Source of the DNA: Enterococcus sp. PF1-24
GTDB taxonomy: Bacteria; Bacillota; Bacilli; Lactobacillales; Enterococcaceae
Length of the DNA: 64,000 nucleotides
Reading direction: 5' to 3'
Assembly: GCF_029893325.1 (NCBI RefSeq)
Contig: NZ_JARXWL010000006.1
Coordinates: forward strand, 1-64,000
The notes beneath the pieces were generated by a model. It was given only the letters and a program-made list of their open reading frames with translations. It had not been told where the DNA came from and searched no databases. Within the stretch, counting starts at the first letter, position 1. Each line of letters starts with the position of its first letter. This document shows positions 49,961 to 58,521 of this stretch, one piece after another. The position numbers were made by a program, and so were the translations under genes.

Positions 49961-49974
49961 AGAAAGCGTTTTCT
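49961..49974. promoter_or_regulatory. Distal operator 1 of pentose locus
   Basis: AGAAAGCGTTTTCT, a palindrome sharing the GTTTTCT half of the sites at 50159 and 50200 but about 200 bases away from them. It may serve DNA looping or be a cre site. Confidence 0.45.
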
Positions 49975-50158
49975 GAACGGCGGAATTCTTCGATAAGAGA
50001 CAAGAAATTAATACAAAGTGATATAAATAGCTGATAAATCAAGTAATTAAAAAATACAGAAAAACTTTACTGCTAAAAATAAGGCTTAAGAAAAATATTA
50101 GAAAACTTTTTTTCTATTGATTTTACTTAGTGGGAGAGTGTATGCTTTTGTCAAATGA

Positions 50159-50172
50159 AGTAAACGTTTTCT
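50159..50172. promoter_or_regulatory. Operator 2 of pentose locus
   Basis: AGTAAACGTTTTCT, identical to the next site. It resembles LacI/CcpA operators. Confidence 0.65.
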
Positions 50173-50199
50173 GAGAGTGGTGATATTTCTTTTATTCTG

Positions 50200-50213
50200 A
50201 GTAAACGTTTTCT
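50200..50213. promoter_or_regulatory. Operator 3 of pentose locus
   Basis: AGTAAACGTTTTCT, an exact repeat of the site at 50159 with centre 41 bp away. Confidence 0.65.
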
Positions 50214-50220
50214 ATATAAA

Positions 50221-50244
50221 TTAGAAGTAAACGTTTACTTCTAA
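50221..50244. promoter_or_regulatory. Operator 4: perfect 24-bp palindrome
   Basis: TTAGAAGTAAAC followed at once by its exact complement. It has the AACGTT core of LacI-type sites, lies 34 bases before the kinase start and likely overlaps the promoter or leader. The local LacI regulator (51221) is the best candidate ligand; CcpA is an alternative. Confidence 0.75.
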
Positions 50245-50277
50245 TTTGATAGAACAATTCTAAAAAGGAGGTTAGTC

Positions 50278-51198
50278 ATGGCAGAAATAGTAGTTATCGG
50301 TAGTTTCATGATGGATTTGGTAACGAGATGTACACGAGCACCGAAAGATGGTGAAACACTTATTGGAGAGAGCTTTATTCGTAACGCTGGCGGAAAGGGT
50401 GCAAATCAAGCAGCTGCGATTGCACGTTTGGAAAAATCTGTTTCTTTTATTGGTATGGTAGGAGAAGATGATTTCGGAAAAGAAGCAAAGCAAATATTGG
50501 CTAGTACTGGTGTTGATGTACAACAACTTTTTATGACGGATAAAGCAGCAACTGGTGTTGGCTGTGTTTGGGTAGAGGAAGAGGGAAATAATCGAATCAT
50601 CGTTGTTCCAGGAGCTAATCATATTTTTGACAGCAACCATTTTGAAACAATAAAAGCAACACTAGATAATGCGAAGTTGTTGGTTTTACAATTAGAGATG
50701 GATTATGATTTGACATTTGAGATTATTGAATACGCAAAAAAAATTAATCTACCAGTATTATTAAATCCTGCACCAGCCTATCCACTATTAGATAAAACTT
50801 TATTTAATTTATCATTTTTGACACCGAATGAATCTGAACTAGCATCATTAACTAATCTACCAGTAGATACTACAGAAGACGTAGTTTTTGCTGCGACTAC
50901 GCTTATCGAGAAAGGTGTAAAAAATGTAATTGTAACTTTAGGCGAAAAAGGAGCACTTTGGCTAAATGAAAATCTAGAAGTATTTCAATCACCAGCACAT
51001 TCAGTAGCTGCAGTGGATACAGTAGCTGCTGGAGATTCTTTCAACGGTGCGCTAGCTTATGGAATAACAGAAGGGTGGGAAATATCTGAAATACTAACAT
51101 TAGCGAATCAAGTTGGAGCATTGACAGTTACGAAAATTGGAGCAATTCAATCTTTACCTACGATGGCAGAGCTTGAAACTTTCAGAAATAAATGCTAG
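50278..51198 (+). CDS. PfkB-family sugar kinase, ribokinase-like
   Basis: A 306-residue kinase of the ribokinase group. The N-terminal signature is GGKGANQAAAIARL near residue 42, and the C-terminal anion hole and catalytic Asp are in AVDTVAAGDSFNGALAYG near residue 250. AAAGGAGG precedes the ATG. It is the first gene after four operators. The neighbouring isomerase for arabinose 5-phosphate suggests that it phosphorylates D-arabinose (or ribose/fructose) at the end carbon. Family members show such relaxed specificity, but the substrate here is inferred. Confidence 0.93.
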   Translation: MAEIVVIGSFMMDLVTRCTRAPKDGETLIGESFIRNAGGKGANQAAAIARLEKSVSFIGMVGEDDFGKEAKQILASTGVDVQQLFMTDKAATGVGCVWVEEEGNNRIIVVPGANHIFDSNHFETIKATLDNAKLLVLQLEMDYDLTFEIIEYAKKINLPVLLNPAPAYPLLDKTLFNLSFLTPNESELASLTNLPVDTTEDVVFAATTLIEKGVKNVIVTLGEKGALWLNENLEVFQSPAHSVAAVDTVAAGDSFNGALAYGITEGWEISEILTLANQVGALTVTKIGAIQSLPTMAELETFRNKC

Positions 51199-51220
51199 CG
51201 AAAAGAGAGAAGGGGTATCT

Positions 51221-52207
51221 ATGAAGCGAGTAACAATTAAAGAAGTTGCCAAACATGCTAATGTTTCAATAGCGACTGTTTCTCGCGTCGTTAATAACTT
51301 AGGCACAGTAACTGAAGATAATCGCAAAAAAGTTCAAAAAGCTATTAAAGAGTTAAATTATTTTTCTAATACTGCGGCTTCAAATTTGAAAAAAAATAGT
51401 AGCAATGTAATTGGTATTGTTATTCCAACATTTACCAATGAGTTCTTTATGAAAATGATTAAAGGAATTGAAGATCAATTTGGGAACTCGGAGTACGTTT
51501 TCTACATTGCTAGTTCAGATGATAATCCAGAAAAAGAAAAAGCTATTTTAAGAAAATTGTTTGAAAGTAATGCAGAAGCGGTGGTTTTAGCAACAATCGG
51601 TAATAATGAAGAGTTTATACGAGAGCTTTTACGAATGCGGATGAATATTATCACTGTAGATCGTCGCATAAAATTAAATAATACTGTTGATTATATTGGA
51701 GAAAATAACTATGAATCTGCGTATAATCTGACAAAAAACTTTTTGAAAATTAATAAGAAAAAAGAATTGGTATTGTTAGGTGGTTATGAAGATCTTTCGA
51801 TTGGCTATGAACGAATTGCAGGTGCTACGAAAGCCTTGGATGAAGCAGATGTTGAGTTTGATTATTACAATGGAGAATATAATGAACATTTGGCAGAGCA
51901 GATTTTTAAGCGGTTACAAGTTAGCTATCCGCAAGGTTGTGGCATAGTTTCGTTAAATAATACAATGACTACTGGTTTAATACATGGAATTTATCAGTCG
52001 GATGAGTTAAAAAATACGGAATTATATCCAATAGCTTCCTATGGACAAATTGATTTTCAAGATGTTTTTTCAAAAAATATTGTTACTTCAGTTCATCAGT
52101 TCCCTTATGAAATTGGTAAGGAAGCAGCTATGCTTTTACAAGGGAAAATTTCAGGAGAAACGAATGCGTTAACTACCAAGCTCATTGAAAATATTATTTA
52201 CAGTTAA
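51221..52207 (+). CDS. LacI-family regulator of pentose locus
   Basis: A 328-residue LacI/GalR-type regulator. VTIKEVAKHANVSIATVSRVV is the helix-turn-helix, followed by the hinge and IGIVIPTFTNEFFMKMIKG at the start of the ligand domain. The start is the ATG at 51221 with AGAAGGGG upstream; a longer frame from 51137 overlaps the kinase and is rejected. It is second in the operon, so it is probably autoregulated through the palindromes at 50159-50244. The inducer may be a pentose or its phosphate. Confidence 0.93.
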   Translation: MKRVTIKEVAKHANVSIATVSRVVNNLGTVTEDNRKKVQKAIKELNYFSNTAASNLKKNSSNVIGIVIPTFTNEFFMKMIKGIEDQFGNSEYVFYIASSDDNPEKEKAILRKLFESNAEAVVLATIGNNEEFIRELLRMRMNIITVDRRIKLNNTVDYIGENNYESAYNLTKNFLKINKKKELVLLGGYEDLSIGYERIAGATKALDEADVEFDYYNGEYNEHLAEQIFKRLQVSYPQGCGIVSLNNTMTTGLIHGIYQSDELKNTELYPIASYGQIDFQDVFSKNIVTSVHQFPYEIGKEAAMLLQGKISGETNALTTKLIENIIYS

Positions 52208-52237
52208 AAATTTTATTTGGAAGGTGTATTAAGTATT

Positions 52238-52831
52238 ATGGATATTTTGAAACGTGCAAAAGAAGTCATAGAATCTGAGCGAAACGGATTAGAGTTGGCT
52301 GGAGCAGCTATTAACGATAATTATTTAGCAATTATAAAAACAATTGAAAATTGCCAAGGAAAAGTGGTTTTTACAGGAGTAGGTAAATCAGGACATATTG
52401 GGAAGAAATTAGCAGCGACTTTTGCTAGCTTGGGAACTTGTGCCATCTTTGTACACAGTACAGAATCGCTCCATGGTGACTTAGGGATGGTTCAACCAGA
52501 GGATGTTGTAGTTATGATGTCTAACAGCGGCGAAACTCAAGAAATTTTAGCTATGATAGAACCGTTAAAAAAAATCGGTTGTAAAAAAGTAGCCTTTACT
52601 TCAAAAGAACATTCTACTTTAGCAAAAAATTGTGAAGAATTATTAGCTTACCAACTGGAGCGAGAAGCAGACACTTTAAATTTAGCGCCTACAACGAGTG
52701 CGGTAATAATGTTAGCTATTGGCGATAGTATCGGTGTGACACTTTCAGAAATGAAACAATTTAGTAGCCAAGATTTTTATTTGTATCATCCTGGTGGTTC
52801 TTTAGGGAAAAAATTACAAACAAAGGGGTAG
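52238..52831 (+). CDS. Single-domain arabinose-5-phosphate isomerase-type SIS protein
   Basis: A protein of about 197 residues matching the SIS domain of the KdsD/GutQ/KpsF family. GVGKSGHIGKKLAATFASLG, then HSTESLHGDLGMV and MSNSGETQEI, and the C-terminal APTTSAVIMLAIGDSIGVTL and YHPGGSLGKKL are all conserved, including the active-site His of HPGG. The CBS pair of the 320-residue Gram-negative enzymes is absent. The family converts D-arabinose 5-phosphate and ribulose 5-phosphate. No KDO genes are nearby, so a catabolic role is likely. The ATG at 52238 is used, with GGAAGGTG a little far upstream. Confidence 0.88.
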   Translation: MDILKRAKEVIESERNGLELAGAAINDNYLAIIKTIENCQGKVVFTGVGKSGHIGKKLAATFASLGTCAIFVHSTESLHGDLGMVQPEDVVVMMSNSGETQEILAMIEPLKKIGCKKVAFTSKEHSTLAKNCEELLAYQLEREADTLNLAPTTSAVIMLAIGDSIGVTLSEMKQFSSQDFYLYHPGGSLGKKLQTKG

Positions 52832-52837
52832 AGAAAT

Positions 52838-54106
52838 ATGAAAAAATTTTTAAGTTTGACATTGTCAGCAGCGTTGATTATGGGATTGAGTGGTTGTGGC
52901 AGCAAAGAAGAAACTAAAAAAGAGAATACAAATGATGGTAAAGTAACGATTGAATTTTGGAATCATTGGACTAGTGATGGTGGAGAAGGAAAATTCTTTA
53001 CAGAAAAAATTAAAGAGTATCAAGAATTAAATCCAGATATTGAAATTATTCAAACTAATGTTCCGATTGATGATTATACAGGAACGAAATTAACAACTGC
53101 TTTTGCGACTGGCGAAGGACCTGATGTTTTTAGCGCAAGCCCAGGGACTATTAATACTTTTATTGATTCAGGGATTAATTATGATTTAAGTGATTACTTT
53201 AGTGAAGCGGTGTTAGCTGATTATTCAGAAGAGTCAATTGCCGATGTAACAAAAAATGACAAAATTATTGCGGCACCATTTGAACAGGATTTAATGGCAT
53301 TATTCTATGATATAGATATGTTTGAAAAAGCTGGGATTGAACCGCCTAAAACCTGGGAAGAAATGATTGATGCCGCTAAAAAACTTACAACTTCTGATGT
53401 GTCGGGGATAACTTATGATTTAACTAAAGGAGCATACGGAAACTTTAGCTTTATGCCATTTGTATGGCAAACGGGTGGAGATTTCTTTGAAGATGATAAA
53501 TCTTTATTGGATACGCCAGAAATGATTCAAGCATTAACACTATGGAAACAAATGGTAGAGGATGGTAGCGCTAATTTGAAACCATCTCGCTTTGCAAGTG
53601 ATGTAGGAATAATTGGTGATGGTGAAACAGCAATGTGGATTGGTGGTAGTTTCGGAATTAAAGCATTAGAAGATGAGTATCCAGATGCAAATATTGGTGT
53701 AATTCCATTGCCAATCCCTGATGGCGGGAAACCTGCTTCTGTAGCTGGTGGTTGGAAATTAGTAGTTAACTCTCAAAGTGATGAAAAAGAGGAAGCTGCT
53801 AAGTTTGTTCAGTGGTTATTCCTAGATGAAGATGCTAAGAATAGTGTTCAATGGAACACTGAAGTTAAATTCTCTTATTCTCCAAGAAAATCTGTTATTG
53901 AAGAAGCTGGTGCAATTTATCAAGATGGGTTAAGAGCTAATTTTACTGATGAAGTTTATGGGACAGAACGCCCAGAATTATCTATGGAACCCAAAGTAGC
54001 CGATATTATTGGTGATATGATCCAGAATGCATTATTTAGTATGTCACCAGAAGAAGCTGCTAAAGATGCAGATGAAAAATTAACAGCTTATTTTGAAAGT
54101 AAATAA
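52838..54106 (+). CDS. Sugar ABC transporter binding lipoprotein 1
   Basis: A 422-residue family 1 extracellular solute-binding protein. The signal peptide ends in lipobox LSGC with Cys20. VTIEFWNHWTSDGGEGKFF and FATGEGPDVFSASPGT are typical of oligosaccharide-binding proteins. It starts six bases after the isomerase gene, and a stem-loop follows it. A paralog lies at 57183. It probably delivers a di- or oligosaccharide to the permeases at 54228 and 55148. Confidence 0.94.
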   Translation: MKKFLSLTLSAALIMGLSGCGSKEETKKENTNDGKVTIEFWNHWTSDGGEGKFFTEKIKEYQELNPDIEIIQTNVPIDDYTGTKLTTAFATGEGPDVFSASPGTINTFIDSGINYDLSDYFSEAVLADYSEESIADVTKNDKIIAAPFEQDLMALFYDIDMFEKAGIEPPKTWEEMIDAAKKLTTSDVSGITYDLTKGAYGNFSFMPFVWQTGGDFFEDDKSLLDTPEMIQALTLWKQMVEDGSANLKPSRFASDVGIIGDGETAMWIGGSFGIKALEDEYPDANIGVIPLPIPDGGKPASVAGGWKLVVNSQSDEKEEAAKFVQWLFLDEDAKNSVQWNTEVKFSYSPRKSVIEEAGAIYQDGLRANFTDEVYGTERPELSMEPKVADIIGDMIQNALFSMSPEEAAKDADEKLTAYFESK

Positions 54107-54111
54107 ATAGA

Positions 54112-54155
54112 ACAAACACACCCTTATACTTAATAACGGGTAAGGGTGTGTTGTT
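54112..54155 (+). terminator. Intercistronic hairpin after binding protein 1
   Basis: ACACACCCTTA and TAAGGGTGTGT arms around a 14-base loop with weak extra pairing and no real T tract. It is likely a 3' stabiliser or partial terminator that raises binding-protein levels over permeases. Confidence 0.7.
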
Positions 54156-54227
54156 TAGTGGAATATTTACTAATAAGCTTAATCGATAATAAACTAGTAA
54201 TGTTTTTAGCAAGAATGGAGGGTAGTT

Positions 54228-55151
54228 ATGCTTAATAAAAAAGAAAAAATGTTTTCTAAAAATAAATCAAAAAGTAAAAGTCGTGGAGAAGCAATTACCG
54301 CTTATTTAATGTTATTACCTGATATTTTAGGTTTAGGGATATTCGTATTTATTCCGATGTTGTATGCAATTTATGTGAGTTTCCATCAATGGAATGGCTT
54401 AACAGATATGCAATTTACAGGGCTTGATAATTATAAGCGATTACTTGCAGACAAAGATTTTTTCAATTCTTTAAAAACTACATTGACTTATGCAATTATT
54501 TACATTCCTAGTGTTTACTGTATTTCATTAGGCTTAGCGATGATTACTGTCAACTTAAAAGGAAAATTAGAAGTTTTTGCTAGAATGGCTTACTTTATTC
54601 CGTATTCAATATCAACGGTAGTAGCGGCGTTAGTTTGGACTTTTATGTATGATCCGAAACGTGGTTATTTCAATAAGATTTTAGGAATGTTAGGCTTTGA
54701 AAATCAGAACTTTTTAGCGGATCGTGATCAAGCACTATTTGCAGTCATTGCGGTAGGTGTCTGGCTAATTGTAGGTTATAACATGGTGATTTTCATTTCA
54801 GCATTAAAAGATGTTCCTAAAATGTATTATGAAGCTGCTGAAATGGATGGAGCTAACGCACTTCAGAAGTTTTTTAACGTAACTATGCCGCAGATTAAAA
54901 ATACGACAGTTTTCATTTTAGTAGTGACAACAATTGGCTCTTTTCAGGTTTTTGACCAAATTAAAATTATGACCAATGGTGGCCCGGCAAAAGCTACTGA
55001 AGTAACGGTTTTTAGAATCTATGATCAAGCTTTTACGATGTATGATTTTGGCTATTCGTCTACCATGGCAGTAGCGCTATTTTTCTTGATTATGGGATTA
55101 TCTTATTTCCAATTTAAATCTATGGGAGAAGATAAGGGGGCATCTAAATGA
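54228..55151 (+). CDS. Sugar ABC transporter permease (MalF/UgpA-type)
   Basis: A 307-residue permease with six hydrophobic segments after a Lys-rich N-terminus. The EAA loop that contacts the ATPase is YYEAAEMDGANALQKFFNVT near residue 204. GGAGGG precedes the ATG. It overlaps the next permease by 4 bases. No ATPase gene is in the operon, so a shared MsmK-like ATPase elsewhere must power it. Confidence 0.94.
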   Translation: MLNKKEKMFSKNKSKSKSRGEAITAYLMLLPDILGLGIFVFIPMLYAIYVSFHQWNGLTDMQFTGLDNYKRLLADKDFFNSLKTTLTYAIIYIPSVYCISLGLAMITVNLKGKLEVFARMAYFIPYSISTVVAALVWTFMYDPKRGYFNKILGMLGFENQNFLADRDQALFAVIAVGVWLIVGYNMVIFISALKDVPKMYYEAAEMDGANALQKFFNVTMPQIKNTTVFILVVTTIGSFQVFDQIKIMTNGGPAKATEVTVFRIYDQAFTMYDFGYSSTMAVALFFLIMGLSYFQFKSMGEDKGASK

Positions 55152-55969
55152 GAAGTAAAAAGAAACAATGGACAATTAATATTTGTGCAATTTTATTAGC
55201 TCTAGTTTTTTTGTTTCCAATTTATGTAATGATTCTGAGTTCTCTAAAACCTAGTTCCGAAATTTTTAAAATGTCATTAATTCCAGATTTTAGCATTTTG
55301 ACTTTAGATAATTTTCGAGAAGTACTAGATAATGATTTTTTCTTTAGAAGTATGTTGAATTCATTTATTATTGCGACTTCAATTACGATAGCGGCTTTAT
55401 TTTTTCACTCTATGGCAGGATATGCTCTTGCGAAAATGCGATTTCCTGGAAAAAAATTGATTTTTGGGTGGTTCATGAGTACGATGATGATTCCCTTTGC
55501 AGTTATTATGATTCCACTTTTTATAATTGTACGACAAATGGGGTTGTTGAACACTTTGTGGGCAGTTATTTTGCCACTTCTACCTAATGCGTATGGCATT
55601 TTCTTATATCGACAGTTCTTTATGAATATCCCGGATTCGTTAATGGAAGCAGCCAAAATAGATGGTTTATCAAATTTCAAAATTTTTTGGAAAATCTATA
55701 TGCCACTTTCAAAACCAATTACAGTTACTTTAGCAATAACTTTTTTTGTTACTAACTGGAATACGTATTTATGGCCACTTATTGTGACTCAAAAACAGGA
55801 GTTATGGGTGATTCAAGTAGCGATGGCGAATTTTAAACAAGAACATACAACTGCTTGGAATTTAATTTTAGCTGGGGCAGTAATTGCAGCTTTACCAACT
55901 GTTATCCTATTCTTTATATTCCAAAAATATATCAAAGATGGTATTAAAACTTCTGGTATGAAGGAATAG
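55148..55969 (+). CDS. Sugar ABC transporter permease (MalG/UgpE-type)
   Basis: A 273-residue permease with six hydrophobic segments. The EAA loop is LMEAAKIDGLSNFKIFWKIY near residue 160. The start ATGA overlaps the stop of the previous permease. It is followed after 72 bases by the GH172 gene. Confidence 0.94.
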   Translation: MRSKKKQWTINICAILLALVFLFPIYVMILSSLKPSSEIFKMSLIPDFSILTLDNFREVLDNDFFFRSMLNSFIIATSITIAALFFHSMAGYALAKMRFPGKKLIFGWFMSTMMIPFAVIMIPLFIIVRQMGLLNTLWAVILPLLPNAYGIFLYRQFFMNIPDSLMEAAKIDGLSNFKIFWKIYMPLSKPITVTLAITFFVTNWNTYLWPLIVTQKQELWVIQVAMANFKQEHTTAWNLILAGAVIAALPTVILFFIFQKYIKDGIKTSGMKE

Positions 55970-56040
55970 GTATGAGTTTGATTGAGATGAAAATAGCAAA
56001 ATAGATTTTGATATCATAAAATGAATGAGGAGAAAATATA

Positions 56041-57141
56041 ATGAATGGATTTGGAAGTTCACTGAGAGATATTTGTAAGGAAAGAGTTGGAAGCAGAAAA
56101 CGAGTTTCTAGCTATGATACTACAGGTGGTAATCGTGACTTTTTAAAAGTTTACCCAGGTGATAGACAAGATATTGCATTAATAGAGGGAGCAGGTTGTA
56201 TTACCCATATTTGGATGACCATGGCACCTTTAGAAGAAATTATGGAAGAGTTTTTATATCGAAAAATCATTTTACGCATGTATTGGGAAGATGAAGAAAC
56301 ACCGAGTGTGGAAGTTCCGATTGGTGATTTTTTTGGAATGGGACATGGTATTACAAAAAATTATGTTTCAGCTCCCTTTCAGATGGGACCAGAAGGTGGT
56401 CAAGCTTTAAATTGCTTTTTGCCAATGCCTTTTTCGAAGAAGGCACGTATAGAAATTGAATCAAATGCTAGTGAACCAATTAAGTTTTACTTTTATGTGG
56501 ATTATGAAGCATATCAAAATGCTCCAGATACGAATTTACGTTTCCATGCATACTGGCATCGTGAAGTGACAAAAGGTATTGACTCAGATAAGGTGGATAA
56601 TGCATTTTATGAGTTTGGTGGTAAAAATACAACGGGCCAAAATAATTATGTTTTATTAGAAACGGAAGGAAAAGGACATTACATTGGCTGCAATTTAAAT
56701 ATTCATAATCTTCGATTTACTAACAATTGGAATTGGTACGGTGAAGGCGATGATATGATTTTTATTGATGGTGAGACCTGGCCGCCTTCCCTTCACGGAA
56801 CGGGAACTGAGGATTATTTTAATACAGCATGGTGTCCTACAGAGGAGTATCAAAGTCCTTACTTTGGTTTATTATTAGGTGGTGATGCCAATTGGGGTGG
56901 TAAAATTTCGACATATCGTTATCATATTGAAGATCCAGTTATGTTTGAAAAATCGATCAAAGTAACGATTGAACATGGTCATAATAATCATCGAAGTGAT
57001 GATTACAGTAGTACTGCTTATTGGTATCAAACAGAACCACATCAAACTTTTAATGATATTCTACCGGTCGAAGAACGCCTACCATTACCTGATATTGTTG
57101 CTCCACATGCTAGCGAAACCGAAAATTTCTTTAATTATTAG
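56041..57141 (+). CDS. DUF2961 / GH172-family glycoside hydrolase
   Basis: A 366-residue protein with the DUF2961 fold, now glycoside hydrolase family 172. Conserved blocks are SYDTTGGNRDFLKVYPGD near residue 23, ITHIWMT near residue 58, VPIGDFFGMGHG near residue 96 and LHGTGTEDYFNTAW near residue 250, whose Glu is probably catalytic. Known GH172 enzymes cleave alpha-D-fructofuranosides (difructose dianhydride type) or alpha-D-arabinofuranosides. No signal peptide, so it acts on imported sugar. GAGGAG precedes the ATG. Beside a D-arabinose-phosphate isomerase, arabinofuranoside is the better guess. Confidence 0.9.
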   Translation: MNGFGSSLRDICKERVGSRKRVSSYDTTGGNRDFLKVYPGDRQDIALIEGAGCITHIWMTMAPLEEIMEEFLYRKIILRMYWEDEETPSVEVPIGDFFGMGHGITKNYVSAPFQMGPEGGQALNCFLPMPFSKKARIEIESNASEPIKFYFYVDYEAYQNAPDTNLRFHAYWHREVTKGIDSDKVDNAFYEFGGKNTTGQNNYVLLETEGKGHYIGCNLNIHNLRFTNNWNWYGEGDDMIFIDGETWPPSLHGTGTEDYFNTAWCPTEEYQSPYFGLLLGGDANWGGKISTYRYHIEDPVMFEKSIKVTIEHGHNNHRSDDYSSTAYWYQTEPHQTFNDILPVEERLPLPDIVAPHASETENFFNY

Positions 57142-57182
57142 TTAAATAAATTGTTTTCAAAAAAGAAAAGAGGCGTATCCTA

Positions 57183-58463
57183 TTGAAAAAGAAAGTCTTT
57201 TGGTTCATTTTTTTATTAAGCGTTGTGAGTATCTGCTTTACTGCTTGTGGAAAAAAGGAAGAAGCTTCAAATAATGAACAAATTGAATTACAATTTTGGC
57301 ATTTTTGGTCGAAAGATGGTGGAGAAGATAAGTTTTTCAAAAAAAGAATTGCTGAGTTTGAAGAACAGAACCCACATATCAAGATTGTCGACAGTAATAT
57401 ACCCGTTGATGATTATATGGGAACAAAATTGGCAACAGCATTTGCTTCTGGCGAAGGACCTGACATTTTTGTTGCTAGTCCAGGAACCATAGGTAGTTTT
57501 AAAACTGCCGGTGTTTTATATTCATTAGATGATATTTTTTCTGAAACCGTACGAGCTGATTACTCACCGGCGTCAATTGAGGCGGTAACAGATGAAAAAG
57601 GGCAAATTATAGCAGTACCAACCGAACAAGATTTAGTTGCACTATTTTATGATATTGATTTGCTAGCTGAACAGAATATAGCTCCCCCTACTACTTGGGA
57701 TGAGTTACTTACTGCTGCAAAAAAACTAACAACGAATGACCGTTCGGGACTGACTTTCGAAGTTAATAAAGGTGCTTTTCAAAACTTTTTAATGATGCCT
57801 TTTTTGTGGCAACAAGGTAGCGACTATATTGTTGATGGCAAATCAAATTTGGATTCTCCAGAAGTTATAAAAGCTTTAACATTTTGGAGAGAATTTATTG
57901 ATAATGGTAGTGCTAATATTAAACCTTCGCGAGGTGCAGGCGATGTAGGCATCTTAGGAGATGATGAAACTGCACTATGGATTGGTGGAACAGTAGGAAT
58001 TAGAGCACTTAACGATGAGTATAAAGACCGAAATATTGGTGTTGTTCCTTTGCCCAAACCAGATGATGATGCGAAAGATGTAACGGTTGCTGGTGGTTGG
58101 AGCTTTGTAGTTAATAATCAAAGTAAACATCCTAAAGAAGCAGCAGAATTTATAAAATACATGTTTTTAGATGAATCTGGAGAAAATAGTTTGAAGTGGA
58201 ATACTGAAGCGAAATTCTCATATTCTCCACGAAAAAGTGTTGTAGAAAAAGGTGAAGCCGACTATCAACAAAATCTAGCAAAAGAAATAACAGAAAATAT
58301 TTATGGTACAGAACGCCCTGAATCGTCTTTACCTTCAGAAGTAAGTGATATTATCGGTGACATGATTCAAGATGCTCTATTTGGAAGTTCTCCCGAAGAA
58401 GCAGCTAAGAAAGCACATGAAAAACTGACGGAATTTATCGCAGACTATGAAGGTGATTTATAA
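57183..58463 (+). CDS. Sugar ABC transporter binding lipoprotein 2
   Basis: A 426-residue paralog of the protein at 52838, alike over the whole length (shared EFWxHWxxDGGE-type start, GEGPDxFxASPGT, NTEAKFSYSPRKSV). The signal peptide ends in lipobox FTAC with Cys22. The start is TTG. It follows GH172 by 41 bases and ends the operon at a terminator. It probably binds a related sugar and shares the same permeases. Confidence 0.93.
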   Translation: MKKKVFWFIFLLSVVSICFTACGKKEEASNNEQIELQFWHFWSKDGGEDKFFKKRIAEFEEQNPHIKIVDSNIPVDDYMGTKLATAFASGEGPDIFVASPGTIGSFKTAGVLYSLDDIFSETVRADYSPASIEAVTDEKGQIIAVPTEQDLVALFYDIDLLAEQNIAPPTTWDELLTAAKKLTTNDRSGLTFEVNKGAFQNFLMMPFLWQQGSDYIVDGKSNLDSPEVIKALTFWREFIDNGSANIKPSRGAGDVGILGDDETALWIGGTVGIRALNDEYKDRNIGVVPLPKPDDDAKDVTVAGGWSFVVNNQSKHPKEAAEFIKYMFLDESGENSLKWNTEAKFSYSPRKSVVEKGEADYQQNLAKEITENIYGTERPESSLPSEVSDIIGDMIQDALFGSSPEEAAKKAHEKLTEFIADYEGDL

Positions 58464-58493
58464 GTTTACTATCAAAATTTTAATGTTTTTTTG

Positions 58494-58521
58494 AGGAACG
58501 GAGAGATCCGTTCCTTTTTTA
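58494..58521 (+). terminator. Terminator of pentose locus
   Basis: AGGAACGGA-GAGA-TCCGTTCCT followed by TTTTT. Confidence 0.9.

Follow-up and report, generated by a model that had tools for sequence, protein, structure and literature searches.

A LacI-controlled enterococcal operon predicted to scavenge alpha-D-arabinofuranosides through a kinase-first D-arabinose route

Introduction

Which sugar does an Enterococcus use when it encodes, in a single operon, a GH172 glycoside hydrolase, a ribokinase-like kinase and a sugar-phosphate isomerase of the SIS family? We address this question for a unit of collinear genes on the + strand at positions 50158-58516 of the window, by which we mean the whole stretch analysed, namely the opening 64 kb of contig 6 from the 2.89 Mb Enterococcus sp. 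PF1-24 assembly (its family-level relatives, the Enterococcaceae, include E. florum and E. songbeiensis). The original prediction described here one unit of a kinase, a LacI regulator, an SIS protein lacking a CBS domain, a sugar ATP-binding cassette (ABC) importer and a GH172 enzyme, and all of these genes are present. As judged from sequence, the unit very probably serves, under LacI control, to scavenge and break down alpha-D-arabinofuranosides.

We propose that small saccharides or glycosides containing alpha-D-arabinofuranose would be bound by two lipoprotein receptors and taken up through a single pair of permeases, with energy probably supplied by a shared ATPase of the MsmK type, and that the cytoplasmic GH172 enzyme would free D-arabinose from these compounds. 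The ribokinase-like enzyme would then phosphorylate D-arabinose at O5 to give D-arabinose 5-phosphate, which the SIS protein would isomerize to D-ribulose 5-phosphate for entry into the pentose phosphate pathway. This is the path that the original prediction had drawn, and several lines of comparative evidence now favor it: the subsites of the GH172 enzyme, the GH183 and GH116 genes near its relatives, the replacement of the kinase and isomerase by a FucI and FGGY pair at other loci, a glycine in the kinase, and FucP-type neighbors of the kinase-isomerase pair.

D-arabinose 5-phosphate is mainly known as a precursor of 3-deoxy-D-manno-octulosonic acid (KDO). No KDO genes are found among the operon's own genes, a statement limited to the operon since no search was aimed at its wider surroundings. 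The pathways of D-arabinose use that we found described are isomerase-first or non-phosphorylative (PMC6336799).

Results

The GH172 gene (56041-57141, + strand) is identified by a profile match spanning the full DUF2961 domain (PF11175, 1.2e-85, positions 1-235 of 235) and by four GH172 matches in the Protein Data Bank (PDB); no signal peptide was seen, and the enzyme is predicted to be intracellular. The nearest solved proteins are the uncharacterised BACUNI_00161 (4kq7), alphaFFase1 (7v1v) and DgGH172c (8ah3), with ExoMA1 (8ic8) farther away; entry 8ah3 is labelled just 'DG02479 GH127', and it is by our reading of the Dysgonomonas gadei paper (PMC10115798) that we equate it with DgGH172c. 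In a tree, the window enzyme groups with those of E. florum and E. songbeiensis, then with enzymes of Bacillaceae and Paenibacillaceae. A scan of a genome collection yielded 80 loci with a GH172 protein at 53-79% identity, and all counts of gene context given below for GH172 relatives rest on the 72 loci that span 10 kb or more.

Because alphaFFase1, the founding member of GH172, is the second-best PDB match, and fructokinases occur among PfkB kinases, the unit might instead serve alpha-D-fructofuranosides, as the original prediction had allowed; GH172 would in that case act on difructose dianhydride I/inulobiose, and the PfkB protein would be a fructokinase. The active site argues otherwise. 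The nucleophile, acid/base, -1 subsite and +1 subsite (E85, K147) residues of alphaFFase1 have been identified (PMC8605356), and the window enzyme keeps the catalytic Glu pair and the -1 subsite in full (W267, E270, E291, D292, W298, Y187), whereas E85 and K147, which inulobiose requires, are absent and a Cys follows the W298 position in place of Gly 299, as in DgGH172c. Mutants of alphaFFase1 at E85 and K147 retain nearly full activity on p-nitrophenyl-alpha-D-arabinofuranoside and less than 5% on inulobiose (PMC8605356), and DgGH172c is active on the same p-nitrophenyl substrate and on D-arabinan (PMC10115798). With a residue pattern near that of DgGH172c, the window enzyme is predicted to be an exo-alpha-D-arabinofuranosidase. 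Fructose use would, moreover, offer no step for a KpsF-type isomerase, the kinase scores far under the fructokinase cut-off, and GH32 occurs within 10 kb at 0 of the 72 GH172-relative loci, unlike two enterococcal loci (L100, L101) whose GH172 proteins keep E85, K147 and the following Gly, adjoin GH32 and ROK-kinase genes, and cluster with alphaFFase1 in the tree. On the subsite residues and the lack of GH32 near relatives we reject the fructofuranoside alternative, which we hold to be very unlikely indeed.

Loci L100 and L101, from two enterococcal genomes, are themselves probable difructose-anhydride/inulobiose loci. Other enterococcal-family genomes carry more distant GH172 proteins (L095-L099, L102, L103; 31-35% identity) with a Phe/Ala active-site variant; their neighbors comprise genes of the size of phosphotransferase system (PTS) subunits, a large regulator-size gene and mostly a ROK kinase, and five of these loci also encode a protein of ~700 aa that lacks a Pfam match in the one member tested, from L095. 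The PTS-like context suggests that these distant enzymes act on a phosphorylated sugar.

The neighbors of closer relatives point to D-arabinan, the mycobacterial form of which is degraded by GH183, GH172 and GH116 enzymes (PMC10115798, PMC10509167). GH183 (DUF4185) or a GH183-like family, c22, lies near 32 of the 72 relatives, GH116 lies near several, and several loci contain an additional, ExoMA1-type GH172. Of five c22 members scanned, one just passes DUF4185 and the other four match nothing in Pfam, and the c22 profile aligns with that of DUF4185 at a probability of 99.2% (hhalign).

This remote alignment makes c22 a candidate new branch of endo-D-arabinanases, with members at L020 (11244-13010), L021 (11157-13175), L022 (12591-14408), L023 (11161-13224), L072, L082 and L087, several bearing N-terminal signal-like segments. 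Also recurring at D-arabinan-type GH172 loci (L017, 4433-6670, and 15 others) are proteins of the DUF6259 type (~740 aa) and members of another uncharacterised family (~670 aa).

The kinase (50278-51198, + strand) is of the PfkB/ribokinase type (PfkB, 1.7e-66) and carries a GSFMMD motif. It passes the ribokinase equivalog model TIGR02152 (319.7 bits, cut-off 299.65), falls below a second ribokinase model, NF008353 (262 bits, cut-off 341), and is the only close ribokinase of the genome. The first and last of these observations favor a system for D-ribofuranosides or nucleoside-derived ribose, in which GH172 would free D-ribose and an ordinary ribokinase would phosphorylate it, with a side role for the SIS protein. 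Against this stand two substitutions in the ribose site relative to E. coli RbsK: Asn14, which has been tied to ribose binding (PMC6452873), is replaced by Met, and Ala98, in a region where the alignment is gapless, by Gly (Gly95). The operon also lacks RbsD, a ribose route would not need a D-arabinose 5-phosphate isomerase, and relatives of the GH172 gene neighbor D-arabinan enzymes; in view of the kinase residues and the missing RbsD in particular, we disfavor ordinary ribose use and consider it very unlikely.

The Gly substitution bears directly on a role in D-arabinose phosphorylation. E. coli ribokinase is weak on D-arabinose, and its A98G mutant shows a 15-fold higher kcat and a lower Km (PMC9604405). 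Gly occupies the Ala98 position in 15 of 16 kinases linked to an SIS gene in our first set, the exception (L088) having Ala, and in all seven further SIS-linked kinases with the position visible in a second sample, for which 400 Bacilli genomes were screened on SIS similarity only. Both samples together give 22 of 23, as against 0 of 25 among enterococcal ribokinase-like proteins not linked to SIS (24 Ala, one Thr). On these residues, we predict that the window kinase is a D-arabinose 5-kinase.

The SIS protein (52238-52831, + strand; 197 aa; SIS profile match, 8.4e-24) is nearest to KdsD, KpsF and GutQ by family models and has no CBS domain. Its closest solved structure is 5uqi from E. coli, which we take to be c3406, followed by KdsD. 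Its score of 194.4 bits against TIGR00393 (cut-off 203.7) comes from an alignment to positions 1-156 only of the 268-position model, the protein having no CBS part. Equivalents of KdsD K59, H88, E111 and E152 and of the C-terminal HPGG histidine, all of which we take to be catalytic in KdsD, occur in the window protein and are kept at 16 of 16 SIS loci (with HPNG at L088), and the protein is predicted to be a D-arabinose 5-phosphate isomerase. A second SIS protein in the same genome (L193, contig 39; 38% identical) belongs to a PTS/aldolase operon that also includes genes resembling those for DHDPS and KDPG aldolase; given this context, and VHGSLG in place of HGDLG, we rejected it as a duplicate of the pathway.

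How the released sugar is processed can also be read from the relatives. Among the 72 GH172 loci, 15 carry a CBS-less SIS gene with a ribokinase-like kinase, 26 carry a FucI-type isomerase and/or an FGGY kinase, and none carries both routes (2x2 test, p = 4e-4, the loci being related). Among the pairs sampled, that of L033 consists of a full L-fucose isomerase with an AraB-type ribulokinase, and the matches to family models at L083 are looser. Either pair would convert D-arabinose to D-ribulose 5-phosphate. Three loci from metagenome-assembled genomes labelled Bathyarchaeota (L053, L055, L067) also hold GH172 relatives, at 59% identity, adjoining FGGY kinase genes, with a FucI-type match at L053.

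These patterns bear on a further alternative, namely that the system is of a D-ribulose or polyol type and can dispense with the SIS protein. In the Rbl operon of Citrobacter rodentium, a KpsF-like isomerase adjoins a D-ribulokinase and is unneeded for growth (PMC12307932). The operon kinase here is of the aldopentose-taking PfkB type, however, rather than an FGGY ribulokinase, a furanosidase is present, and SIS is absent where FGGY kinases adjoin related GH172 genes; we give this alternative hardly any weight.

The kinase and SIS genes also travel together beyond GH172. The 400-genome sample contains eight such pairs, five with GH172 (L181, L182, L183, L184, L189) and three adjoining a FucP-type permease (L185, L186, L187). 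With L144, an enterococcal-family locus that combines RbsD/FucU-type, SIS, kinase and FucP genes, the pair accompanies a FucP-type permease at four loci in all. FucP transports L-fucose and also D-arabinose. Other SIS homologs of the sample (L159, L160, L162, L163), which have longer open frames, show no kinase in the flanks fetched. Taken together with the kinase residues, we think it likely that the pair constitutes an undescribed and widespread Gram-positive pathway that phosphorylates D-arabinose first, with a natural D-arabinose 5-kinase marked by GSF[MIV]xD and Gly at the Ala98 position, and that it joins either a GH172/ABC module, when D-arabinofuranosides are used, or a FucP module, when the sugar is free D-arabinose.

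Several observations weigh against this proposal or narrow it. Besides the Ala of the L088 kinase, the Gly counts are not independent events, since SIS-linked kinases fall in few clades and so represent few independent origins. Ribose may also be a substrate of the window kinase, because it passes TIGR02152 and is the genome's only close ribokinase. A test of the SIS/FucI exclusion on independent pairs was not significant, with too few informative pairs; for this reason, and because the loci are related, we treat the exclusion as supportive only. The pair at L143 (9308-10831) has neither GH172 nor FucP; its context of mannose-type PTS, RpiB-like, DHDPS-like, aldehyde dehydrogenase, mandelate-racemase-like, aldolase and dehydratase genes resembles a pentonate pathway. 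Finally, whole-genome searches of the window's own genome gave no GH183 (DUF4185), GH116 or c22 match, and a repeated PF13810 search, in which the positive controls were found, gave the same result; E. florum and E. songbeiensis have no GH183 match either. The substrate is therefore probably small, either oligosaccharides that other organisms have released or D-arabinofuranosides of another kind, and the organism probably scavenges small products, the source of the polymer being missing. The original prediction had named mycobacterial arabinan as a possible source; as a whole polymer on which this organism could feed alone, it finds no support in a genome with no match to GH183 or GH116.

The importer that would deliver such products was part of the original prediction, and its binding-protein and permease components are indeed present; to this we add that the unit encodes two binding proteins and no ATPase. 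Binding protein 1 (52838-54106; SBP_bac_1) has a lipobox-like LSGC near its N terminus, and binding protein 2 (57183-58463; SBP_bac_1), also a lipoprotein, is 56% identical to it; the permeases, both BPD_transp_1, are encoded at 54228-55151 (A) and 55148-55969 (B), all on the + strand. We infer both the transport substrate and the ATPase partner, the latter presumably being the product of the one MalK/MsmK-type ATPase gene elsewhere in the genome, shared with this importer.

The LacI-family regulator (51221-52207, + strand; profile match) and the SIS protein were assigned the better-fitting start codons at 51221 and 52238. Three operator-like sites AAGTAAACGTTTACTT lie upstream of the kinase gene within 50158-50240: a perfect palindrome at 50225-50240, and copies at 50158-50173 and 50199-50214 with two and three mismatches, respectively. 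The operator core AGTAAACGTTTWC is unique to this promoter region within the whole assembly. E. songbeiensis and E. florum have the perfect palindrome as well, 5' of the homologous genes, and at several Bacillaceae loci (Bacillus, Lentibacillus, Virgibacillus) the homologous units are preceded by closely similar versions GTGTAAACGWTTACAC; in Virgibacillus oceani (L017), the same version stands ahead of the ABC cluster and again ahead of the LacI-SIS-GH172 genes. This uniqueness and conservation fit a local, dedicated regulator, and the sites are probably bound by the operon's own LacI protein, whose inducer, like every enzymatic activity, we infer. A cre-like site AGAAAGCGTTTTCT at 49962-49975, ~300 bp 5' of the operon, is a possible catabolite-control site.

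Two predicted RNA elements complete the unit: a strong hairpin in the gap between the genes for binding protein 1 and permease A (54110-54157, + strand; -21.9 kcal/mol, z -4.3), which probably acts in attenuation or protection of the transcript, and an intrinsic terminator at its end (58493-58516, + strand). The same gene set is repeated in Enterococcaceae, Bacillaceae, Paenibacillaceae, Clostridia and Actinobacteria, a recurrence that argues against a chance assembly. A PLSDB search returned only GH172 matches below 60% identity, with no sign of a plasmid-borne operon.

Discussion

GH172 D-arabinofuranosidases, D-arabinose 5-phosphate isomerases and ABC-type D-arabinan loci are already known, and the operon shares features with each. 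Closest in layout is the D-arabinan locus of Microbacterium arabinogalactanolyticum (PMC10509167), which likewise combines a sugar ABC importer, an intracellular GH172 exo-alpha-D-arabinofuranosidase, and a kinase and isomerase leading toward D-ribulose 5-phosphate. That locus differs in having a secreted GH183 and an intracellular GH116, and its GH172, ExoMA1, is distant (120 bits); the authors name only 'a putative isomerase and kinase', their types unspecified (PMC10509167). PUL42 of D. gadei (PMC10115798) encodes DgGH172c, which has the same -1 site and Cys as the window enzyme and likewise lacks the +1 residues, but PUL42 is a Bacteroidota polysaccharide locus with endo-D-arabinanases, whereas the window combines an ABC importer with a dedicated branch into the pentose phosphate pathway and lacks an endo-enzyme. 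The alphaFFase1 locus of Bifidobacterium dentium (PMC8605356) resembles the operon in GH family, ABC importer and intracellular enzyme, and differs in that alphaFFase1 is a difructose anhydride I synthase/hydrolase with a GH32 neighbor and with the E85 and K147 that the window enzyme lacks.

The isomerase step has its own precedents. KdsD, GutQ and c3406 share the SIS fold and catalytic-site residues with the window protein, but KdsD and GutQ have CBS domains and serve KDO synthesis or a glucitol operon, whereas the window gene lies in a catabolic operon with a furanosidase. The API protein of Clostridium tetani is reportedly a bacterial D-arabinose 5-phosphate isomerase. Of the phosphorylative D-arabinose routes in E. 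coli, that of strain B likewise ends at D-ribulose 5-phosphate, but these routes act isomerase-first, via D-ribulose, whereas the route predicted here is kinase-first, via D-arabinose 5-phosphate (PMC6336799). We found no description of a kinase-first D-arabinose route in a literature search of incomplete coverage.

If correct, our model would give D-arabinose 5-phosphate a catabolic role in Gram-positive bacteria. It also offers a sequence rule to separate D-arabinose kinases from ribokinases, which are at present filed together, and the natural Ala98-to-Gly substitution on which this rule draws is the same change that engineers chose for arabinoside synthesis. Cell walls of the tuberculosis type are built in part from D-arabinose, and the operon suggests that D-arabinofuranosides, whether from mycobacteria or from elsewhere, are scavenged by bacteria of the lactic-acid type.

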